DNA of 64,000 bases, taken from Halobaculum marinum. Lineage in GTDB: Archaea; Halobacteriota; Halobacteria; Halobacteriales; Haloferacaceae. Within the stretch, counting starts at the first letter, position 1. Every line of letters begins with the position of its first letter. Of the stretch, positions 26,447-35,672 are shown in pieces. The notes below the pieces were generated by a model that worked only from the letters and a program-made list of their open reading frames with translations, was not told where the DNA came from and searched no databases. The translations under genes and the position numbers were made by a program. The DNA lies in assembly GCF_029338555.1 (NCBI RefSeq), contig NZ_CP119989.1:1984001-2048000 (forward strand), written 5' to 3'.

Positions 26447-27667
26447 ATGGGAATGGAACGAAGGCAGTTCGTCGGGACGGCCGCCGCGGCGCTGGCCGGG
26501 GGACTTGCTGGGTGTGCAGGGTCGTCCAGCGACGGCGCAGAGACGACGACGGAGACGGAGACTGGCACGAGCACCGCGACCCCGGTGGAGACGACGGCTC
26601 CACCCCAGGAGTACGCGTCAAGCATGGCGCCCGTCGGGGGGGTGTCGTTCGACGCGCCGCCGTCGAGTGTGTCGGTGTACAGCCTCACCTACGCGGACCT
26701 CGCCGTCGCGTACGGCCACGGCGACGCGGTGAACTCGCTCGGGTTCGACGCCGCCGCCGGCGGCAACACGCTCGACGCCTACTACGCCAGACTCGACGGC
26801 GTCGACTTCGACTACGACGATCTCACACAGCTCAACAGCGGCTCCGGGGAGATCCGCGTCGAGAAGGAGGTGTTCTACGAACTCGACTCCGACCTCCACC
26901 TGATGGACCCGGCGCTGCTCACCTCGTTCGACGGCTGGGAGCGCGCGGACGTGGAGGAGATCACCGACAACGTCGGTCCGTGGTTCGGCAACGTGTACAG
27001 CCGCACGCACAGCCAGCCGCCCGAGTCGTGGCGCGACGCCTACGAGTACTACGGCCTGTGGGAGATCGCCGAGCGCGTCGCCCCGCTGTTCGGCGAGTCC
27101 GACCGCTACGAGGCGCTCGCGGCGGTACACGACGACCTCCTGGCGACGATCGAGGCTGGGCTGCCGCCCGAGTCCGAGCGCCCCTCGGTCGCCGCGCTCA
27201 TCTACTTCGACGGGACGTTCTACCCGTCGGCGATCAACGCACCGGGCTTCGCGAACGCCCACGTCCGCCCGCTGGGCGCGACGGACGCGTTCGCCGACAC
27301 CGACGCCGGGTTCGGCACCACGTACGACTACGAGACGCTGCTGGAACTGGACCCGGACGTGATCCTCCACCAGTACGGCATCGCCTCCTACTACGACGTG
27401 GCCGCGATCCGCGAGACGATCGCCGACGACCCTGTGGGGAGCGACCTCACGGCGATCCAGAACGACCGCTTCTACCCCTCGGGCACACCGGTTCAGGGCC
27501 CGCTCATGAACCTGTTCCAGTTGGAGATGACCGCCAAGCAACTGTACCCCGAGCAGTTCGGCGCGTGGCCCGGGTACGAGCATGGTGCCGCGTACCCGGC
27601 GATCCCGGAGGACGAGCGGCTGTTCGACCGCGAGCGCGTTGCCGACATCGTCGCAGGGTCGAACTGA
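26447..27667 (+). CDS. Iron-chelate ABC transporter substrate-binding lipoprotein, SBP1
   Basis: A 406-residue exported receptor with a Tat signal (ERRQFVGTAAAALAGG) and lipobox (LAGC, about 23), then a Thr/Glu-rich tether (about 25-55). The PF01497-like periplasmic-binding fold has KEVFYELDSDLHLMDP (about 139-154), NVGPWFGNVY, LELDPDVILHQYG and a C-terminal AIQNDRFYPSGTPVQGPLMNLFQLEM. It captures a ferric siderophore or similar chelate outside the cell and would hand it to the permease at 33652. The ATG at 26447 follows the operator by three bases, so the transcript is leaderless. It is one of four paralogues in tandem. Confidence 0.92.
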   Translation: MGMERRQFVGTAAAALAGGLAGCAGSSSDGAETTTETETGTSTATPVETTAPPQEYASSMAPVGGVSFDAPPSSVSVYSLTYADLAVAYGHGDAVNSLGFDAAAGGNTLDAYYARLDGVDFDYDDLTQLNSGSGEIRVEKEVFYELDSDLHLMDPALLTSFDGWERADVEEITDNVGPWFGNVYSRTHSQPPESWRDAYEYYGLWEIAERVAPLFGESDRYEALAAVHDDLLATIEAGLPPESERPSVAALIYFDGTFYPSAINAPGFANAHVRPLGATDAFADTDAGFGTTYDYETLLELDPDVILHQYGIASYYDVAAIRETIADDPVGSDLTAIQNDRFYPSGTPVQGPLMNLFQLEMTAKQLYPEQFGAWPGYEHGAAYPAIPEDERLFDRERVADIVAGSN

Positions 27668-27759: not shown

Positions 27760-28929
27760 ATGGACGCGAACCGACGACGGTTCCTCGGGCTGACGAGTGC
27801 GGCGATCTCGGCGGGGCTGGCGGGCTGTGCCGGCTCCGCGGGCGACGAGGCGGAGTCCTCGACCGAGTCAGCCGCGACGACGACCGAGGCGGACGCGACG
27901 ACGACCGCACCGCCGGACACGAGCTACAGCGTGACGATGGCGCCGGTCGGCGACGTGACGTTCGACGACGTACCGGAGACGTTCACCGTGTACGAGTCGG
28001 GCTACGCCGACATGGGTATCGCGCTCGGGAAGGGCGAAGACCTGCTCGCGGTCGGCAACACGGCGCGCTACTACACCGACCACGTCGACGAGTTGGACGG
28101 CGTCGCCGCAAACACGGAGCCGACCCAGTTGCTCGGCGACTCGTACGCAATCGACCGCGAGTTGTTCTACGAACTCGACAGCGACGTCCACCTGATCGAC
28201 CCGCAGTGGCTCCTCAACAACGGCTACTTCAAGCTGGAGGAGTCGGACCTCACAACCGTCACCGAGGACGTGGGCCCGTTCGTCGGAAACACGATCTTCC
28301 GGCGGACGGACCCGTGGCACGAGTACCGCTACTACACGCTGTACGAGGCGTTCGAGACGGTCGCGCAGGTGTTCGACCGCGCCGACCGCTACGAGGCGGT
28401 GAAGGCCGTCCACGACGACGCGGTCGCCGACGTGAGCGCCCGGCTGCCGAGTGCGGACGCCCGCCCGAACGCGCTGTTGTGCTTCGGCGCCGGCGACGAA
28501 CCCGAGCAGTTCTACCCGTACCGCCTCTCCGACCGCGGGACGAACAAGAAGCAGTTCCGCGATCTGGGCATCACGGACGCCCTCTCGGGGACGGGCATCT
28601 CGGGGCTGTCGACGAACGACCGCGGTCAGATCGACTACGAGACGATGCTGGAGGTCGACCCCGACTCGATCCTCCTGCGCGGCCACGAGAGCAAGACTGA
28701 GCAGGAGTTCCGCGACACGGTCGTCGCGTTCATGCAGGAGCACTCGGTCGCGTCCGAGTTGACCGCCGTCCAGGAGGGGCGCGTGTTTCGCGGTGGTCCC
28801 ATCTACCAGGGACCGCTCCAGCACCTGTTCAACCTCGAACGCTTCGCGACGCTGTACTTCCCCGACGAGTTCTCCGGCGACCTGTTCTCACGGGACGAAC
28901 TGGCGGCGGCGATCCGCGGCGAGGCCTGA
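27760..28929 (+). CDS. Iron-chelate ABC transporter substrate-binding lipoprotein, SBP2
   Basis: A 389-residue paralogue of SBP1. Tat lipoprotein signal NRRRFLGLTSAAISAGLAGC (about 4-23), Ser/Thr/Glu tether, then the binding fold with RELFYELDSDVHLIDPQWL (about 128-146), EDVGPFVGNTIFRR, MLEVDPDSILLRGHE and VQEGRVFRGGPIYQGPLQHLF. The pocket region differs from SBP1 (YYTDHVDELDG, RRTDPWHEYRYY), suggesting another ligand. It is monocistronic by layout: own operator pair upstream and another promoter downstream. Confidence 0.92.
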   Translation: MDANRRRFLGLTSAAISAGLAGCAGSAGDEAESSTESAATTTEADATTTAPPDTSYSVTMAPVGDVTFDDVPETFTVYESGYADMGIALGKGEDLLAVGNTARYYTDHVDELDGVAANTEPTQLLGDSYAIDRELFYELDSDVHLIDPQWLLNNGYFKLEESDLTTVTEDVGPFVGNTIFRRTDPWHEYRYYTLYEAFETVAQVFDRADRYEAVKAVHDDAVADVSARLPSADARPNALLCFGAGDEPEQFYPYRLSDRGTNKKQFRDLGITDALSGTGISGLSTNDRGQIDYETMLEVDPDSILLRGHESKTEQEFRDTVVAFMQEHSVASELTAVQEGRVFRGGPIYQGPLQHLFNLERFATLYFPDEFSGDLFSRDELAAAIRGEA

Positions 28930-28997: not shown

Positions 28998-30206
28998 ATG
29001 GGCCGAACCAGACGACGCGTCCTCGGTGGGATCGCGAGTGGACTGACTGTGGGTGCTGCGGGGTGCCTGGGCGGCACAAGTGGCGGGGCCCAGAGTGACG
29101 ACGGAACCGCTTCAGAGACGACGGCGTCGGCAACTACCACAGCCGACACCGCGTACACCGCCTCCATCGTGCCGGTGGGCGAGGTGACGTTCCCGGACGT
29201 GCCCGAGACGTGGCTCTGCTACAACGGCGGCTGGGCGGACATGGCGTTCGCACTGGGCCAACGCGACGGCTTCCTGACCGCAGGAAACATGATCCCTGGG
29301 TTCTTTTTCGAGCCGTTCGGGCTGGACGTTCCCGGACAAGACGACCTGCCGGCGTTGGCCGACTGGAACGCCGGCGGCTGGAACAAGGAGGTGTTCTACG
29401 AACTCGATCCAGACGTGATCCTGATGGATCCCACCTACCTGCACGGGACGGGGTGGGACGACGACTGGGACGCCGACGACACCGCCGAGATCCGCGACAA
29501 CGTCGCGCCGTTCTTCGGGAACAACTGTCGGCGCCGTCGCGAGTTCCACGACTACAAGCTGTACAGCATGTACGGCGCGTTCGAGCGCCTCGCCGAGGCG
29601 TTCCAAGAACAGGAACGCTACCGTGCGTTCGCGGAGCTCCACGACGAGGTGCTCTCTGAGGTGCAGTCCCGGCTCCCACCCGAGGAGGAGCGCCCTGAGA
29701 TCGGGCTGATCAACGGCGGGTCGAACCCCGAGGAGGGCGTCTTCTACCCCCTCCACACACAAGACGAGGGGTACGAGATGAAGCCGTACCGCGATCTCGA
29801 CGTGAAGAGCGCCTTCTCGAAGGATCTGGAGGCCGCGGGCGAGGCGGACTACGAGCGCCTGCTGGAGGTCGACCCCGAGATCATCGTCGTCCACTGGGGG
29901 ATCGGCACCACCACGCCAGAGGCGGACGGATTCGACGCCGAGGCGTTCCACGAGCAGTACGTCCGGCCGATGGAGGAGGACGGCGTCGGGAGCCAGCTCA
30001 CGGCCGTCCAGAACGGGCGAGTCTACCCTGGCGCGTACGGCGAGCAAGGACCCATCGTGAACCTCCTCCAGACGGAGATGAAGGCCCAACAGCTGTACCC
30101 CGAGGAGTTCGGCGAGTTCGACCCCGAGTCGTTCCCGGAGGTGCCCGAGGACCGACAGCTGTTCGACCGCCAGCGCGTCCGCGACATCATCACCGGGGAG
30201 TTCTGA
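28998..30206 (+). CDS. Iron-chelate ABC transporter substrate-binding lipoprotein, SBP3
   Basis: A 402-residue paralogue with Tat lipoprotein signal TRRRVLGGIASGLTVGAAGC (about 4-23). The mature part shows AGGWNKEVFYELDPDVILMDP (about 127-147), RDNVAPFFGNNCRRR, GLINGGSNPEEGVFYPL and VHWGIGTTTPEADGFDAEAFH. It is closest to SBP4 (shared NGYEMKPYRDL-type and VHWGI segments). Its stop overlaps the ATG of the flavoprotein gene (TGATG), so receptor and flavoprotein are made together under the same iron-box promoter. This is direct contextual support for a reductive iron-release role of the partner. Confidence 0.92.
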   Translation: MGRTRRRVLGGIASGLTVGAAGCLGGTSGGAQSDDGTASETTASATTTADTAYTASIVPVGEVTFPDVPETWLCYNGGWADMAFALGQRDGFLTAGNMIPGFFFEPFGLDVPGQDDLPALADWNAGGWNKEVFYELDPDVILMDPTYLHGTGWDDDWDADDTAEIRDNVAPFFGNNCRRRREFHDYKLYSMYGAFERLAEAFQEQERYRAFAELHDEVLSEVQSRLPPEEERPEIGLINGGSNPEEGVFYPLHTQDEGYEMKPYRDLDVKSAFSKDLEAAGEADYERLLEVDPEIIVVHWGIGTTTPEADGFDAEAFHEQYVRPMEEDGVGSQLTAVQNGRVYPGAYGEQGPIVNLLQTEMKAQQLYPEEFGEFDPESFPEVPEDRQLFDRQRVRDIITGEF

Positions 30207-31156
30207 TGGCTCGCACGGACACCGTCGAGGGGACCGTCGGCGCCGACCCGGACTCGGCGGTCGACCACGACGTGCTGGTCGTCGGTGGCGGCGTCGCGGG
30301 GCTGTCGGCGGCGACGTTCCTCTCGCGGTACGGGCTCGACACGCTCGTGCTCGCCCGCGGGAAGTCGGCCATCGGTCAGTGTGCCCACCTCGAGAACTAC
30401 CTCGGGTTCCCCGCGGGCGTCTCGCCCGAGCGGTTCCTCGCGCTCGGACGCGAGCAGGCGACGTTCGAGGGAGCGACGGTCCGCGAGGAACTCGTCGAGC
30501 GCGTGGCGACCGTCGACCTCGCCGAGCACGGCGTCGACGACGGCGGCACGAGCGACCCCCCCGCCTCCCGGGGCGGGTTCGCCGTCGACAGCGACGAGGG
30601 GCAGTACGTCGTCCGGTACGTCCTCGCGGCGACGGCCTACGACGGCGACATGTTCGAGCCGCTGGAGGACCGCCTCGACACCGATGCGGAGTACGGGGCA
30701 GCCGAGACCGAACACGGACGCACCACGGTCACGGGGTTGTACGCCGCCGGATGGATGACCGACGAGACGGTCCACCAAGCCGTCGTCAACGCGGGCCACG
30801 GTGCTCGCGCGGCCACCTCGCTCGCCCGAGACGACCTCGACGCACGCTTCTGGCCCGGCGTCGGCGACAACCTCGTCGACTGGGTCGTCTACGAGGACCG
30901 CTACGCCGTCGACGACGAGTGGGAGGCGGACACCCGAGACTGGTTCGACCGCGAGGTTGTCGGCGACGCCACCGTCGACGACGCCACCGTGGAAGCGGCC
31001 TACGACGTCGTCCGGTCGGAGTACGTCGCACGGATGATCGACGCCGAGGAGGCCGCTGAACGCGACCGTGCGGGCCAGCGCCGCCTGCTCGACCACGTAG
31101 ACGATGACGTGATCCGCGAGTACCTCGACGGCGACGACGAACCGGCGGGCTGCTAG
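30206..31156 (+). CDS. TrxR-like FAD protein lacking NAD(P)H domain and CxxC, copy 1
   Basis: A 316-residue cytoplasmic flavoprotein. The FAD-binding Rossmann motif VLVVGGGVAGLSAATFLSRYG (about 23-43) and the C-terminal FAD motif TTVTGLYAAGWMTDETVHQAVVNAGHGARAA (about 172-202) are as in thioredoxin reductases. The NAD(P)H-binding domain normally between them is absent, and there is no redox CxxC. A family-specific extension (about 208-316) has DWVVYEDRYAVDDEWEADTRDW. The paralogue is at 39089. Co-translation with SBP3 suggests a ferric-chelate reductase or a ligand-modifying role; the electron donor is unknown and could be ferredoxin or a free flavin. Confidence 0.82.
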   Translation: MARTDTVEGTVGADPDSAVDHDVLVVGGGVAGLSAATFLSRYGLDTLVLARGKSAIGQCAHLENYLGFPAGVSPERFLALGREQATFEGATVREELVERVATVDLAEHGVDDGGTSDPPASRGGFAVDSDEGQYVVRYVLAATAYDGDMFEPLEDRLDTDAEYGAAETEHGRTTVTGLYAAGWMTDETVHQAVVNAGHGARAATSLARDDLDARFWPGVGDNLVDWVVYEDRYAVDDEWEADTRDWFDREVVGDATVDDATVEAAYDVVRSEYVARMIDAEEAAERDRAGQRRLLDHVDDDVIREYLDGDDEPAGC

Positions 31157-31245: not shown

Positions 31246-32511
31246 ATGTCCGACGACGAGACGACGACCGGAGCCCCGACGCGACGGGACTACGTGAAGT
31301 ACGGAGCAGCCGTCGCGACCGGCGGCTTGTTCGCCGGCTGTGCCGCCAGCGGCACCGAGTCACCCGCTTCGAGCACCGAGCCGACCGGGACCGAGAGTCC
31401 GACCGCCGCCGACACCGACACGGCCACCGACGGGAGCTACTCGGTCGAGTTGTTCCCGGTCGGTGAGGTCGAGTTCGAGTCGGTCCCGGAGTCGGTCGTC
31501 ACCTACAACATGGGGTGGGCTGACATGGTCGTCTCCCTGGGCCAGGCGGACAAACTCCGCACGAACCGGCTGGTCGCGCCGACGATGTTCTACGACCGCT
31601 TCGACGTCGAATGGGACATCGACTACCCGCCGCTGTGGCAGGACGGCGGGATCCCGAAGGAGGTGCTGTACGAACTGGACCCGGACGTGTTCATGATCGA
31701 CCCGAACCTGTTCAAAGCGTGGGACGACGACTGGGACGACGACGACGTCGACGAGATCGAGTCCAACGTCGCCCCGTTCTTCGGGTGCTACAACCGCCGG
31801 ATCCGGGGGGAGTGGCAGCAGGAACTCGGCTACCCCGAACGGGCGCCGTCGATGCTGGAGTCGTTCGAGGCGGTCGGCGAGGTGCTCGACGAGCCGGCGC
31901 GGGCGCGGGCGTGGCTCGACCTCCACGACGGGCTCCAGTCGGAGGTCCGGTCGCGGCTGCCGGCGGACGCCGACACCCCGTCCATCGCGCTGATCAACGG
32001 CGGGTCGGCCCCCGGCGAGGGTGAGTTCTACGTCCTGAACCTCGAGGACAACGGCTACGAGATGAAGCCGTACCGCGATCTCGGGCTGGTCGATGCCGAC
32101 GCGTTCGGGGGCGTCGAGACCGGCCAGTACGGCGCGACCGACTACGAGACGATGCTGGAGGTCGACCCGGACCTGATCCTCGTCCACTGGGGGATCACGA
32201 CCGGCTCGGTGACCTTCGACGGCGACGGCGCCTTCGACGCAGAGGCGTTCCGCGAACAGTACGTCGCGCCGATGGAGAACGACGACGTCGGGAGCCAACT
32301 CGCCGCCGTGCAAGCGGGTCGCGTCCTGCCCGGGCCGACCGCCGAGCAAGGTCCGCTCGTCAACGCGTTCCAAACGGAGTTGACTGCACGACTCTTTTAC
32401 CCCGACGAGTTCGGCGCCGTCGACCTCGAGGCACCATTCGACGTGCCCGAAGGAGAGCGTCTGTTCGACCGCGACCGCGTCCAGTCGATCCTCGACGGCG
32501 ACGTGGTGTGA
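31246..32511 (+). CDS. Iron-chelate ABC transporter substrate-binding lipoprotein, SBP4
   Basis: A 421-residue paralogue with a longer N-terminus before the Tat motif (TRRDYVKYGAAVATGGLFAGC, about 12-32) and a Ser/Thr/Glu tether. The binding fold has KEVLYELDPDVFMIDPNLF (about 138-156), SNVAPFFGCYNRRIRGEW, IALINGGSAPGEGEFYVL, ILVHWGITTGSVTFDGDG and VLPGPTAEQGPLVNAFQTEL. It is most similar to SBP3. Downstream, without an iron box, comes the gene of unknown family at 32574, which may be read through from this promoter. Confidence 0.92.
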   Translation: MSDDETTTGAPTRRDYVKYGAAVATGGLFAGCAASGTESPASSTEPTGTESPTAADTDTATDGSYSVELFPVGEVEFESVPESVVTYNMGWADMVVSLGQADKLRTNRLVAPTMFYDRFDVEWDIDYPPLWQDGGIPKEVLYELDPDVFMIDPNLFKAWDDDWDDDDVDEIESNVAPFFGCYNRRIRGEWQQELGYPERAPSMLESFEAVGEVLDEPARARAWLDLHDGLQSEVRSRLPADADTPSIALINGGSAPGEGEFYVLNLEDNGYEMKPYRDLGLVDADAFGGVETGQYGATDYETMLEVDPDLILVHWGITTGSVTFDGDGAFDAEAFREQYVAPMENDDVGSQLAAVQAGRVLPGPTAEQGPLVNAFQTELTARLFYPDEFGAVDLEAPFDVPEGERLFDRDRVQSILDGDVV

Positions 32512-32538: not shown

Positions 32539-32577
32539 ATGGAGACGCCCCCGACGACCACCACGCACGACCGATGA
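32539..32577 (+). other. Possible 12-aa leader ORF
   Basis: METPPTTTTHDR, ending in TGA that overlaps the ATG at 32574 (ATGA). A weak TATA-like CCATAACG (about 32514-32521) lies about 24 nt upstream. It may be a coupling leader or chance. Confidence 0.25.
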
Positions 32578-33521
32578 TCGGCACCACACTCGGCGACCTC
32601 CGTCGCCACATCGACTCGCTCGCCGACCCGACCGGCGCGTACCGCATCTGCTGTGGGCGCACCGGTGAGCGACCGGTCCCGGTCGCCGGGCTGGCGTTCA
32701 CCGACCGCGAGACCGCTCGGGCCGCGATCCGGTGCGGCGAGCAGTACCGAGCGGCGCTGCGTCGGTACGACCCGCAGGTGCCGGTGTACGACCTCGTCGC
32801 CGTGGAGTGCCCCGACGGGTCGCTCCCGACGACGCCCTTCAGCCAGGCGCGGGTGCCGGCTGGTGCGACGGGCACGACGATGCCCGAAGACGCGGCTGGC
32901 GACGGGTCTTCCGCCTCAACGGACCGGAGTCACCTCCCCGACTCCGCGATCGACCTCTGTCACACCGTCGCCGGCGCCGTGTTCGAAGCGATCGCCGACT
33001 CGCCGTACGCGACGTTGCAGGACGCGATCATGGACGAGTACCTCGCGGCGGCGGAGAGGGTAGACGAGCCGGACGAACTGTGTCTCCAGCTGCTGGACAG
33101 CATCGCGGTCGAACTCGACACGCGCCTCGACGACGACGAGACCGCGCGACTGCTCCGTGCTGCTGGCAGGCGACTGTCGGCCAGAGAGCCACCCGCTCAG
33201 CGTGACCCCGTGACGGCGATCCTCGACCGACTCCAGTCGGCCGGGATGCTCGGCTCGTACGCGGTGTCGACACCGCGGGTCGACCTCGACCAGACGGCGG
33301 GACGGTGGCGGGTCGAGGTGGACGGCTACGCGCTCGCGGACCACGAGGATGATCGGCTGGTCACGCTCCCGGTGTCCGTCGCGCTGTTCGGCCGAGCGTC
33401 GGTCCGCTCGGCGGCGATCACCAACGTGACGCGGCCCACCTCGGAGCGGTGGCGACTGACGGCCGCGACGAACCCGTCGGGCGGCCCGTCCGGCCTGACT
33501 CGCGTCCACCCGGCGAGCTGA
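32574..33521 (+). CDS. Unknown haloarchaeal protein in the iron locus
   Basis: A 315-residue cytoplasmic protein of no family I can name. N-terminal part (about 1-80): LGDLRRHIDSLADPTGAYRICCGRTGERPVPVAGLAFTDRETARAA, with a paired Cys (about 23-24) and the VYDLVAVECPDG strand. Middle part (about 120-210): helical segment DLCHTVAGAVFEAIADSPYATLQDAIMDEYLAAAERVDEPDELCLQ. C-terminal part (about 218-300): strand-rich, GRWRVEVDGYALADHEDD. It lies between SBP4 and the permease, which suggests a role in chelate use or locus regulation. Scattered Cys and His could bind metal, but no clear site is seen. Confidence 0.75.
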   Translation: MIGTTLGDLRRHIDSLADPTGAYRICCGRTGERPVPVAGLAFTDRETARAAIRCGEQYRAALRRYDPQVPVYDLVAVECPDGSLPTTPFSQARVPAGATGTTMPEDAAGDGSSASTDRSHLPDSAIDLCHTVAGAVFEAIADSPYATLQDAIMDEYLAAAERVDEPDELCLQLLDSIAVELDTRLDDDETARLLRAAGRRLSAREPPAQRDPVTAILDRLQSAGMLGSYAVSTPRVDLDQTAGRWRVEVDGYALADHEDDRLVTLPVSVALFGRASVRSAAITNVTRPTSERWRLTAATNPSGGPSGLTRVHPAS

Positions 33522-33618
33522 TCCGGTCTGGGGTCAGGTGCATCCTCGACGGATCGCTTCGACGCGCGGCGCCCCTCCCCGCTGCTTCGACCCACCGCTT
33601 CGACACGCTTTTTACTGT

Positions 33619-33634
33619 CTTAGGCGAGCCTAAA
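33619..33634 (+). promoter_or_regulatory. Single iron-box operator of the permease operon
   Basis: CTTAGGCGAGCCTAAA lies just after a TATA-like CTTTTTAC (33609-33616). It ends four bases before the ATG at 33639, the same geometry as site 2 of the four receptor genes. No second upstream site is seen; instead three copies of GCTTCGAC occur at 33555, 33584 and 33597. Confidence 0.75.
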
Positions 33635-33638
33635 ACGT

Positions 33639-33671
33639 ATGATCGGAACTGGTGATCGCCGTGGCCAGTGA
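33639..33671 (+). other. 10-codon ORF at the expected permease start
   Basis: The ATG at 33639 is exactly where a leaderless transcript from this promoter should start translation. It encodes only MIGTGDRRGQ before TGA and is one frame away from the permease, whose first usable start is the GTG at 33652. Either a leader peptide or a frameshift at the permease N-terminus. Confidence 0.45.
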
Positions 33672-34809
33672 GACCGGCGAGACGGTCAGGGAGTTTGACA
33701 GCCCCCTGTCGTGGATCGACTCCTCGCTCGTGACGGTCGCGCTCGTGAGTACGGCCATCGTCGTCGCCTCGGGCCTCGTGCAGGTGAGCTTCGGCGCGTT
33801 CACGATGTCCGTCGGCACCGCGTGGGCCGCCGTGTTCGACCCTCTCGTGTGGACGAACCCGCAGGTGCTCTTGCGACTGTTCCTCGGTGAGGGCCTCGGC
33901 AACGCGGTCGCAGCCGCCGTCGGCCTATCGACGGCGGCGGTCGACCTCCCGAAGGAGACGCTGATTGTCTGGCAGATTCGGATGCCGCGGGTGCTCGTCG
34001 GTGTACTCGTCGGCGCGAACTTGGCGGTGTCGGGCGCGGTGTTCCAGGCGGTGACCCGCAACGAACTCGCATCGCCGTTCATCCTCGGCGTCTCGGCGGG
34101 GGCGGGGCTCGCCATCCTCCTGTCGCTCGTCGTGTTCTCCGGACTGGCGGCGTTTCTCCCGCTCATCGCCGCCGGCGGTGGCGCGGTCGCGTTCCTCCTC
34201 GTGTACGCCATCGCGTGGAAGGGCGGCACCGACCCCGTGCGACTCGTCCTCGCGGGCGTCATCGTCTCGACGGTGTTCGGCTCGCTCCAGACGGGGCTGT
34301 TCTTCTTCGCCGACGACCTCGGCGTGGTCCAGTCGGCGTTGGCGTGGACGACGGGGTCGCTCACCGGCGTCGACTGGGAGCAGGTGCGGATGTCGCTCCC
34401 GTGGACGCTCGTCGCAGTCCCGCTGACGCTGGTCGGTGCGCGGCAGTTGAACGTCCTCTTGCTCGGCGAGCGAACCGCACGCTCGCTCGGGATGTCGGTC
34501 GAGCGCGTCCGGTTCGCGCTGTCGGCGGTGGCGGTGTTGGCGGCGGGGACGGCAATCGCCGTCGCCGGTATCGTCGGTTTCGTCGGGCTCATCGTCCCGC
34601 ACATGGTGCGCCAACTCGTCGGCTCCGACTACAAGCGTCTCGTCGTCGCGTGCGTGTTCGCGGGCCCCGCGCTCGTCACGCTCGCCGACGTGGGCGCTCG
34701 CCTCGCGCTCTCGCCCGCACAGCTCCCGGTCGGCATCGTCACCGGCCTGATCGGCGGGCCGTACTTCCTCTACCTGATGCGACGCCAGGAGGGGTTGGGG
34801 GGACTATGA
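33652..34809 (+). CDS. FecCD-type iron-chelate ABC transporter permease
   Basis: A 385-residue inner-membrane permease of the FecCD/BtuC family with about nine or ten membrane spans. Diagnostic segments are QIRMPRVLVGVLVGANLAVSGAVFQAVTRNELASPFILGVSAGAGLAIL (about 106-154), the coupling region RTARSLGMSVERVRF (about 275-289), and AVAGIVGFVGLIVPHMVRQLVGSDYKRL (about 303-330) near the C-terminus. It would serve all four receptors as the only permease of this type here. The start GTG (33652) is uncertain because the iron-box promoter points to the ATG at 33639 in another frame. The stop overlaps the ATPase ATG (ATGA). Confidence 0.93.
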   Translation: MIAVASETGETVREFDSPLSWIDSSLVTVALVSTAIVVASGLVQVSFGAFTMSVGTAWAAVFDPLVWTNPQVLLRLFLGEGLGNAVAAAVGLSTAAVDLPKETLIVWQIRMPRVLVGVLVGANLAVSGAVFQAVTRNELASPFILGVSAGAGLAILLSLVVFSGLAAFLPLIAAGGGAVAFLLVYAIAWKGGTDPVRLVLAGVIVSTVFGSLQTGLFFFADDLGVVQSALAWTTGSLTGVDWEQVRMSLPWTLVAVPLTLVGARQLNVLLLGERTARSLGMSVERVRFALSAVAVLAAGTAIAVAGIVGFVGLIVPHMVRQLVGSDYKRLVVACVFAGPALVTLADVGARLALSPAQLPVGIVTGLIGGPYFLYLMRRQEGLGGL

Positions 34810-35672
34810 GCGCGGACGACGACGCGTCTCCGACCGACGAGACAGCGGACGCCCGAAACACCGCCTCTCCCGGCATCTCCATCGAGGAGGTGGCGCTCTC
34901 GTACGGCGGCGACCCGGTCGTCGAGGCCGAACGCCTGGACGTGCCAGCCGGCGAGATAACGGCGCTCGTCGGGCCGAACGGGAGCGGGAAGTCGACACTG
35001 CTGAAGGCGATGAACGCGGAGCTGTCGCCCGACCGTGGCGTCGTCGCCTTCGACGGCGCAGCCGTGGAGTCGTACGAGACCGGCGAACTCGCCCGACGAC
35101 TCGGGCTCCTCTCGCAGGACCACGCCGCCCCCGAGTCGACGACCGTCCGGGAACTGGCCACGCACGGGCGCTACCCCCACCGCGGCTTCTTCGAGGGGTT
35201 GCGCGAGGCCGACTACCGCGCGGTCGACCGTGCCATCGAGCGCGTCGGCGTCGAGCACCTCGCCGACCGGCCGGTCGGCGGACTCTCGGGGGGGCAAGCG
35301 CAGTTGGCGTGGCTCGCGATGGTGCTCGCACAGGAGACGGACGCGCTGTTGCTCGACGAACCGACGACGTACCTCGACTTGCACCACCAACTGCGCGTGC
35401 TCGATGCGGTCCGGGAGCTCAACGCCGACCACGGCGTCACGGTGTGTGTCGTCCTCCACGACATCGGGCAGGCCGCGCGCTTCGCGGACAACCTGATCGC
35501 GCTGAAGGACGGCGAGCCGTACGAGTGGGGACCGCCAGACGAGGTCGTGACCGAGGAGCTCCTCCGGGAGGTGTTCGGCGTGGTCGCCGACGTGGGCTTC
35601 GGTCCCGAGGGTCCCACGGTGACTCCCCGCCGGCCCGTGTCAGAAGTGGAAGACGAGAGCGCGGCAGACTGA
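34806..35672 (+). CDS. Iron-chelate ABC transporter ATP-binding protein
   Basis: A 288-residue ATPase of the FecE/BtuD type, powering uptake through the permease encoded just upstream. Walker A GPNGSGKST (56-64), Q-loop LLSQD (about 101-105), signature LSGGQ (160-164), Walker B LLLDEPT (181-187) and H-loop VCVVLHDIGQA are all intact. An N-terminal acidic Ser/Thr tail (1-25) is typical of haloarchaea. The C-terminus (about 250-288) is also acidic. It is the last gene of the iron-boxed permease operon and converges with a histidine kinase gene. Confidence 0.95.
   Translation: MSADDDASPTDETADARNTASPGISIEEVALSYGGDPVVEAERLDVPAGEITALVGPNGSGKSTLLKAMNAELSPDRGVVAFDGAAVESYETGELARRLGLLSQDHAAPESTTVRELATHGRYPHRGFFEGLREADYRAVDRAIERVGVEHLADRPVGGLSGGQAQLAWLAMVLAQETDALLLDEPTTYLDLHHQLRVLDAVRELNADHGVTVCVVLHDIGQAARFADNLIALKDGEPYEWGPPDEVVTEELLREVFGVVADVGFGPEGPTVTPRRPVSEVEDESAAD

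Follow-up and report, generated by a model that had tools for sequence, protein, structure and literature searches.

The FecCD permease gene of an iron-siderophore uptake cluster in Halobaculum marinum is preceded by a ten-codon frame (mini-ORF) that opens just behind a regulatory palindrome and ends over the permease start codon. The start, the open frame and the stop position of this mini-ORF are conserved. We consider it likely that it serves as a leaderless fore-cistron, which would load ribosomes and pass them to the permease by termination-reinitiation, with the operator giving iron control. The window referred to below is the whole stretch of 64,000 nucleotides that was analysed, and positions are counted from its first letter.

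The permease start in the Halobaculum marinum cluster

The window cluster consists of four substrate-binding proteins, a FAD-type oxidoreductase, a FecCD permease and an ABC ATPase, a set for iron-siderophore uptake (Table 1). A gene with DUF7552 and DUF7551 (32574-33521) lies between receptor 4 and the permease promoter and has no operator of its own. The closest named relative is Halobaculum gomorrense, with a permease 90% identical. The leaders of loci L027 and L009 (Halobaculum gomorrense versus a genome of the window's own genus) are identical.

Table 1. Features of the iron-uptake cluster and of the permease start region in the window.
Feature	Position	Strand	Remarks
Substrate-binding protein 1	26447..27667	+	ATG behind operator site 2 (26429); PF01497 E 3e-6, just below the curated cut-off
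Substrate-binding protein 2	27760..28929	+	ATG behind operator site 2 (27741); Pfam
Substrate-binding protein 3	28998..30206	+	stop TGA shares 1 nt with the ATG of the next gene
FAD/NAD-dependent oxidoreductase-like gene	30206..31156	+	relatives directly precede the permease in many haloarchaea
Substrate-binding protein 4	31246..32511	+	ATG behind operator site 2 (31226); Pfam
TATA-like element cTTTTTACTG	33609..33618	+	centred ~26-28 nt before ATG 33639; putative promoter
DtxR/FerR-type operator palindrome TTAGGCGAGCCTAA	33620..33633	+	single site, 14 bp; receptor genes have two
Mini-ORF (fore-cistron), putatively leaderless	33639..33671	+	10 codons, MIGTGDRRGQ, stop TGA 33669-33671
GGTGATC, Shine-Dalgarno-like	33651..33657	+	inside the mini-ORF, 3 nt before GTG 33661
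GTG put forward earlier as permease start	33652..33654	+	start codon here in 2/9 Halobaculum-group loci
FecCD iron-siderophore ABC permease	33661..34809	+	382 aa; Pfam FecCD E 1.5e-88; VASE/VAGE start conserved
ABC transporter ATPase	34806..35672	+	ATG overlaps permease stop by 4 nt (ATGA); ABC_tran E 1.1e-30

Each receptor gene has two TTAGGNNNNCCTAA-type palindromes that flank a TATA-like element, and its ATG follows the second palindrome after 4-6 nt. The initial annotation had placed these ATGs three to five bases behind operator site 2, and this agrees with the measured distances of 4, 5, 4 and 6 nt behind the 14-bp site, or 3-5 nt when a 16-bp site is assumed. The permease has a gap of 5 nt between the end of its operator and the ATG at 33639-33641. 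The pattern TTAGGNNNNCCTAA has five exact matches in the whole genome and a control pattern has 0. Another exact operator of the same genome (L111:1501-1531; G000:C2:197072) precedes staggered ATGs in different frames at +13 and +17, of which the second (+17) opens a 393-aa ORF.

Two marks of membership in a DtxR/FerR iron regulon, a palindromic operator near the promoter and DtxR-family regulators in the genome, are both present. Four genes score above the cut-off for the DtxR family (PF01325), one of them only with its neighbours. The label DtxR/FerR-type, which we take to apply to this operator, draws in part on PMC11349517. The fhu genes of Haloferax volcanii are reported to carry a ferR regulon signal, and the permease HVO_B0197 of that species to rise 12.7-fold in low iron (PMC11349517).

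It had been claimed that the ATG at 33639 opens a 10-codon frame only and that the permease needs the GTG at 33652, one frame away. The reading of the short frame holds: the ATG is followed by nine codons and a TGA, out of frame with the FecCD permease, and GTG 33652 lies 13 nt downstream in another frame. The permease frame is closed upstream by TGA 33640-33642, inside ATGATC, so the permease must start at one of two codons, GTG 33652 or GTG 33661. The start is most likely GTG 33661, because the equivalent codon is GTG in all nine Halobaculum-group loci (conserved VASET/VAGET) and a start codon equivalent to 33652 occurs in the window locus (L001) and L006 only. GTG 33652 was rejected as a start for this missing conservation, and the earlier claim is revised to that extent; it is probably part of the Shine-Dalgarno-like (SD-like) element GGTGATC. 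We take this element to be a 7-nt match to the complement of the expected anti-Shine-Dalgarno sequence, the 3' end of the 16S rRNA being assumed. The junction between mini-ORF and permease in the window is an 11-nt overlap, not an RTGA tetramer.

The initial annotation had also considered a real or artefactual frameshift at the permease start, and had proposed a comparison of orthologous promoters in which a missing ATG together with a conserved GTG start would speak against its reading. Every one of the nine Halobaculum and five Halolamina loci retains the ATG and ends the short frame over the permease start, with the stop over permease codons 3-4 in 14/14. In the 13 of these loci that share the 22-nt spacing, none of the three ATG columns varies but 18 of the 19 following ones do, and six different second codons are used. 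L006 has lost the TGA by substitution, and a TAG one codon earlier closes the short frame. The ATG is thus conserved, not missing. There is a conserved GTG start, but it is that at 33661, not 33652. A frameshift or sequencing error finds no support, for the same out-of-frame spacing recurs in the orthologues.

Stop placement across haloarchaeal permease loci

The survey includes 100 stretches hand-picked, mostly one per genome, from a listing that gave part of the matches. Of 236 loci, 217 gave a tblastn match; requiring a query start no later than 60 and a score of 40 bits or more left 195, and duplicate removal left 174. An operator with at most one mismatch lies within 400 nt upstream of the permease in 75 of these 174 distinct loci. 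In 17 of the 75 the operator-proximal ATG is itself the in-frame permease start, in the fashion of a leaderless gene; L221 and L180 were assigned to this class by hand. Among the 58 loci whose permease does not start there, 46 have an ATG at +4 to +13 behind the operator, and the other 10-nt bins further down the leader hold 0-5 ATGs each. This placement exceeds chance.

The mini-ORF frame ends -2 to +11 nt from the permease start in 43 of the 46. The spacings are -2 (4 loci), 1 (2), 4 (13), 8 (5) and 11 (18); the 4-nt junction is found in 13/47 loci, and also in L207 once its start is corrected by hand, the sole manual change to the rule-based start calls. The mini-ORFs found among these 58 loci have 9-65 codons, use either non-permease frame and have no peptide in common, and the leaders of loci with a stop-placed mini-ORF measure 19-191 nt. 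Counting also mini-ORFs that begin with GTG, and those of group g5 that begin at a later ATG, gives 50/58; the GTG mini-ORFs (L040, L171, L217) and the +43 ATGs of g5 were admitted after inspection. L171 is a miss in the shuffle test, where the first GTG was taken, and a match in the group test (GTG +6). Stop placement fails in L035 (+22), L117 (-43) and L120 (+41). The latter two, from genus g40, have ~150-nt leaders in which the frame of the operator-proximal ATG misses the called permease start. No mini-ORF was found at the expected place in Haladaptatus L039, L052 and L205 or Halorussus L072, where an operator is present and the leader is 54-77 nt long.

Shuffling of all leaders gives 25.5/54 stop-placed loci on average and at most 35 in 2000 shuffles, compared with 50/54 observed. 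For the 19-22-nt leaders of Halobaculum and Halolamina the null, with the frame taken as given, is 0.87-0.97. As shuffling already gives 25.5/54, the stop position in a short leader is weak evidence by itself. The decisive evidence comes from the long leaders: of those with at least 100 nt, 22/25 are stop-placed versus 5.7 expected and a maximum of 13. Leaders read one or two bases out of register give 1/54 and 12/54. Genus labels and record titles were used to sort loci by hand into 26 groups, each represented in the test by the member with the longest leader. In 24 of the 26 the stop falls in -9 to +11, with 9.9 expected for shuffled leaders (P 6e-14, an optimistic value, as the groups are related and the range was chosen after seeing the data) and 4.7 if the frame is random too. 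The tally is 24/28 when the Haladaptatus and Halorussus loci without a mini-ORF are included.

The frame itself is kept open. In leaders of at least 40 nt the mini-ORF frame has 0.5 stops in 676 codons, and the other two frames have 25.0 in 674 and 13.5 in 668 (group means). The encoded peptide would be nearly free, because GC3 is only 0.669 (GC by codon position 0.689, 0.575, 0.669), pN is mostly close to pS in ten mini-ORF pairs, and frames and lengths vary. These comparisons suggest that start, openness and stop are held by selection and that the peptide is hardly selected. SD-like matches of at least 5 nt occur at 25/54 junctions (shuffled mean 7.1, maximum 15).

The A+T content upstream of the mini-ORFs bears on the transcript start. 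Ahead of the mini-ORF start, the A+T fraction of the 26 group representatives is highest at -29 to -26, with 1.00 at -28. The profile of the 17 leaderless permeases lies ~4 nt further upstream; the two profiles correlate best at a shift of 4 (r 0.47), with lower values at other shifts. The position of the peak and the 4-nt shift together suggest a transcript start on the start codon of the mini-ORF and, for the leaderless permeases, one a few bases ahead of the ATG. Leaderless transcripts are reported to make up 72% of the protein-coding ones in H. volcanii, most of them without an extra base (PMC4983044).

Proposed termination-reinitiation and the competing readings

According to the mechanism that we propose, the permease mRNA would have its 5' end on AUG 33639 or no more than two bases away. 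Ribosomes would load on this leaderless AUG, translate ten codons without a fixed sequence, stop at UGA 33669-33671, remain on the mRNA and restart at GUG 33661, which the mini-ORF overlaps. The restart would be assisted by the SD-like GGTGATC within the mini-ORF, and the mini-ORF would substitute for a full-length upstream gene. The operator between the TATA box and the start would render the whole unit iron-dependent at transcription. We infer the transcript start, the translation of the mini-ORF, the coupling and the iron regulation from sequence.

Features of termination-reinitiation are found at these junctions, namely an overlap or gap of a few nucleotides (-2 to +11, as above) and an SD-like motif in the upstream frame. 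Reinitiation at overlapping genes is reported to be efficient in H. volcanii and to need very short distances (PMC6728339, PMC10666635). It drops with distance and is nearly gone at ~20 nt; the final 15 nt of an upstream gene can be enough for it (PMC10666635). The contribution of SD motifs to reinitiation varies in this species (PMC6728339). The commonest prokaryotic overlap spacings named in the accessible text of PMC10666635 are -4, -1 and -8, and eleven nucleotides is not among them.

Alternatively, GGTGATC could direct a de novo start of the permease at GTG 33661 behind a 22-nt leader, with the mini-ORF a competing, dampening uORF or without effect. The SD-like element is suitably near, 3 nt before the GTG, and E. 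coli mRNAs that have both a 5'-terminal AUG and an SD are reported to be able to use both starts (PMC4965119). However, nothing would require a competing uORF to end on the permease start; 43/46 nevertheless do so across leaders of very different length, and H. volcanii made no use of a 7-nt SD for de novo initiation on the gene tested, sod (PMC3986360). We regard a de novo start as unlikely. The Shine-Dalgarno motif as the sole start signal was rejected separately, as matches of at least 4 nt are missing at 11/54 junctions. If the ATG were kept only by a sequence preference of the transcription start region or of the operator, its position at the expected transcript start would be explained, but neither an open frame of up to 65 codons nor a stop on the permease start would be; this is quite improbable.

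Control of permease translation by a leader peptide was the other proposal of the initial annotation. One part of it stands in modified form, since there does appear to be a leader cistron with its stop placed on the permease start; a conserved message in the peptide does not, as no sequence is shared across lineages and pN is close to pS. A short leader frame ahead of a regulated transport gene is the classical setting of attenuation, and a peptide that stalls ribosomes while sensing iron or an amino acid would fit that setting. The nearly free peptide argues against it, as does the region around the start, where no terminator-like hairpin (0 sites at 33500-33800) and no Rfam match (33450-33900) was found. 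An attenuator or riboswitch was rejected on these two results, and we hold a regulatory leader peptide to be very improbable. Seven single folds gave no common structure, by eye, that would occlude the start codon. Disruption of an originally in-frame leaderless start by a frameshift, real or artefactual, has next to no probability: the 17/75 operator loci with an in-frame start would supply the ancestral arrangement, but the out-of-frame layout is present throughout the Halobaculum and Halolamina loci and other lengths and frames are used elsewhere. The conserved stop of the short frame and the use of both frame relations speak against a programmed frameshift that would yield a fused protein. 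Termination-reinitiation from the fore-cistron is the reading that we carry forward.

Possibly displaced first genes and known coupled systems

Permeases without an operator have a different upstream neighbour. Of 99 such loci, the 98 with a usable start were counted, and 92 have a long upstream frame that ends within 30 nt, overlapping or abutting the permease; the commonest junction is a 4-nt overlap (37). These 92 frames are FAD oxidoreductase-like in 47 cases, receptor-like in 11 and neither in 34. Because so many operator-less permeases adjoin a long frame, the mini-ORF appears to take the place of the full-length upstream gene that would be coupled to the permease in most of these relatives.

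The short-frame device also precedes the FAD gene where this gene is placed first, in nine loci with a junction of 4 or -3: Halorubrum (L034, L036), Haloarcula (L084, L092, L097, L100) and Haloferax (L085, L094, L096). In all of these but L036, the frames before the operator-led FAD genes have 21-46 codons and end on the FAD start or 3 nt before it; the frame has 21 codons in the three Haloferax loci. Among the operator sites scanned in the window and the retrieved loci, 118 have a proximal ATG that opens a long frame, as leaderless genes do, 64 have one that opens a frame of fewer than 100 codons, and 337 have no ATG there; at the end of many of the short frames no long ORF begins. Four Halorubrum loci (L062:4372, L066:4355, L067:4260, L068:4324) have an operator and then a 55-codon frame, MSAGARSR..., that ends 1 nt before an ORF beginning MTD.

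Some of the cistrons resemble parts of known genes. That of L036 matches the profile of receptor N-termini with E 1.2e-11 and that of receptor C-termini with E 1.4e-4. L036:1198-1400 (Halorubrum aquaticum) is a substrate-binding-protein gene with its middle deleted, of which the signal region and the C-terminal end remain. The N-terminal receptor profile also matches L202 (9.6e-5) and L207 (3.4e-4), and the best of 740 shuffled peptides reached 0.024; of the 37 cistrons with at least 18 residues, only L036, L202 and L207 stand clearly above the controls. L209, which is closely related to L202, reached 0.012. The L188 cistron is similar to the C-terminus of genes found immediately before the permease elsewhere (E 3.3e-4, small set). 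Since one of them, that of L036, is an internally deleted substrate-binding-protein gene, fore-cistrons can, in some relatives, be remnants of lost first genes. The ~60-codon mini-ORFs of Natrinema and others were also considered as a conserved small protein; this was rejected in favour of decayed genes, given pN near pS, low GC3 and some receptor-profile matches.

It is possible, and we propose it tentatively, that haloarchaea retain worn-down first genes as ribosome-loading fore-cistrons, and that leadered genes without a usable SD may often use this device. The start, open frame and overlapping stop of a dead first gene would be retained because the next gene is translatable only by reinitiation.

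This kind of arrangement is known from mycobacteria. The leaderless coupled small ORFs described there (Shell et al. 2015, PMC4633059) have a leaderless start, as we propose for the present case, and share with it a short ORF and a stop on the next start; one of them has a conserved linkage and an unconserved peptide, as is found here. The mycobacterial type is bacterial and has an RTGA junction by definition, whereas the host here is an archaeon and the overlap in the window is 11 nt. The present case further differs from the ORFs of PMC4633059 in that it concerns one gene family over 26 groups, of which 24 fit, and in that some cistrons are traced to decayed genes. Overlapping gene pairs of H. 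volcanii (Huber et al. 2019, PMC6728339; PMC10666635) similarly combine a stop/start overlap with an SD-like motif upstream, but those pairs are reported as native genes and the upstream partner here is a 10-codon frame with no sign of a gene function.

Other systems share parts of the layout. In E. coli a 5'-terminal AUG (uAUG) stands ahead of SD-led genes with a variable effect downstream, and the accessible text does not mention conserved stop placement (PMC4965119). The leaderless bicistronic design of Corynebacterium has the same layout and purpose, a leaderless fore-cistron and an SD driving the next gene, but is engineered (PMC10367133), whereas the present case is natural and conserved. 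The uORFs in long 5'-UTRs of H. volcanii (Babski et al. 2016, PMC4983044) also belong to a haloarchaeon; the uORF analysis there covers leaders of 150-250 nt only, and coupling by stop placement is not described in its accessible text. Ribosome delivery by short uORFs is named as a possible mechanism in a 2025 review (PMC12548453). No description of an archaeal counterpart of the leaderless coupled fore-cistron was found in the literature searched, which was largely without subscription papers, and the archaeal case thus appears undescribed in that literature.

The permease loci present a comparative-genomic case for an archaeal mini-cistron selected for the position of its start and stop and hardly for its encoded peptide. 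They offer a direct test of how haloarchaeal genes that are not leaderless are translated, though the SD seems not to serve de novo starts. At promoters of this type, fore-cistrons can account for wrongly called starts and for apparent frameshifts. They would also provide a route for a dying gene to persist as a translation device. If true, the descent of fore-cistrons from lost first genes would cover part of the unexplained initiation of leadered haloarchaeal genes without a usable SD.
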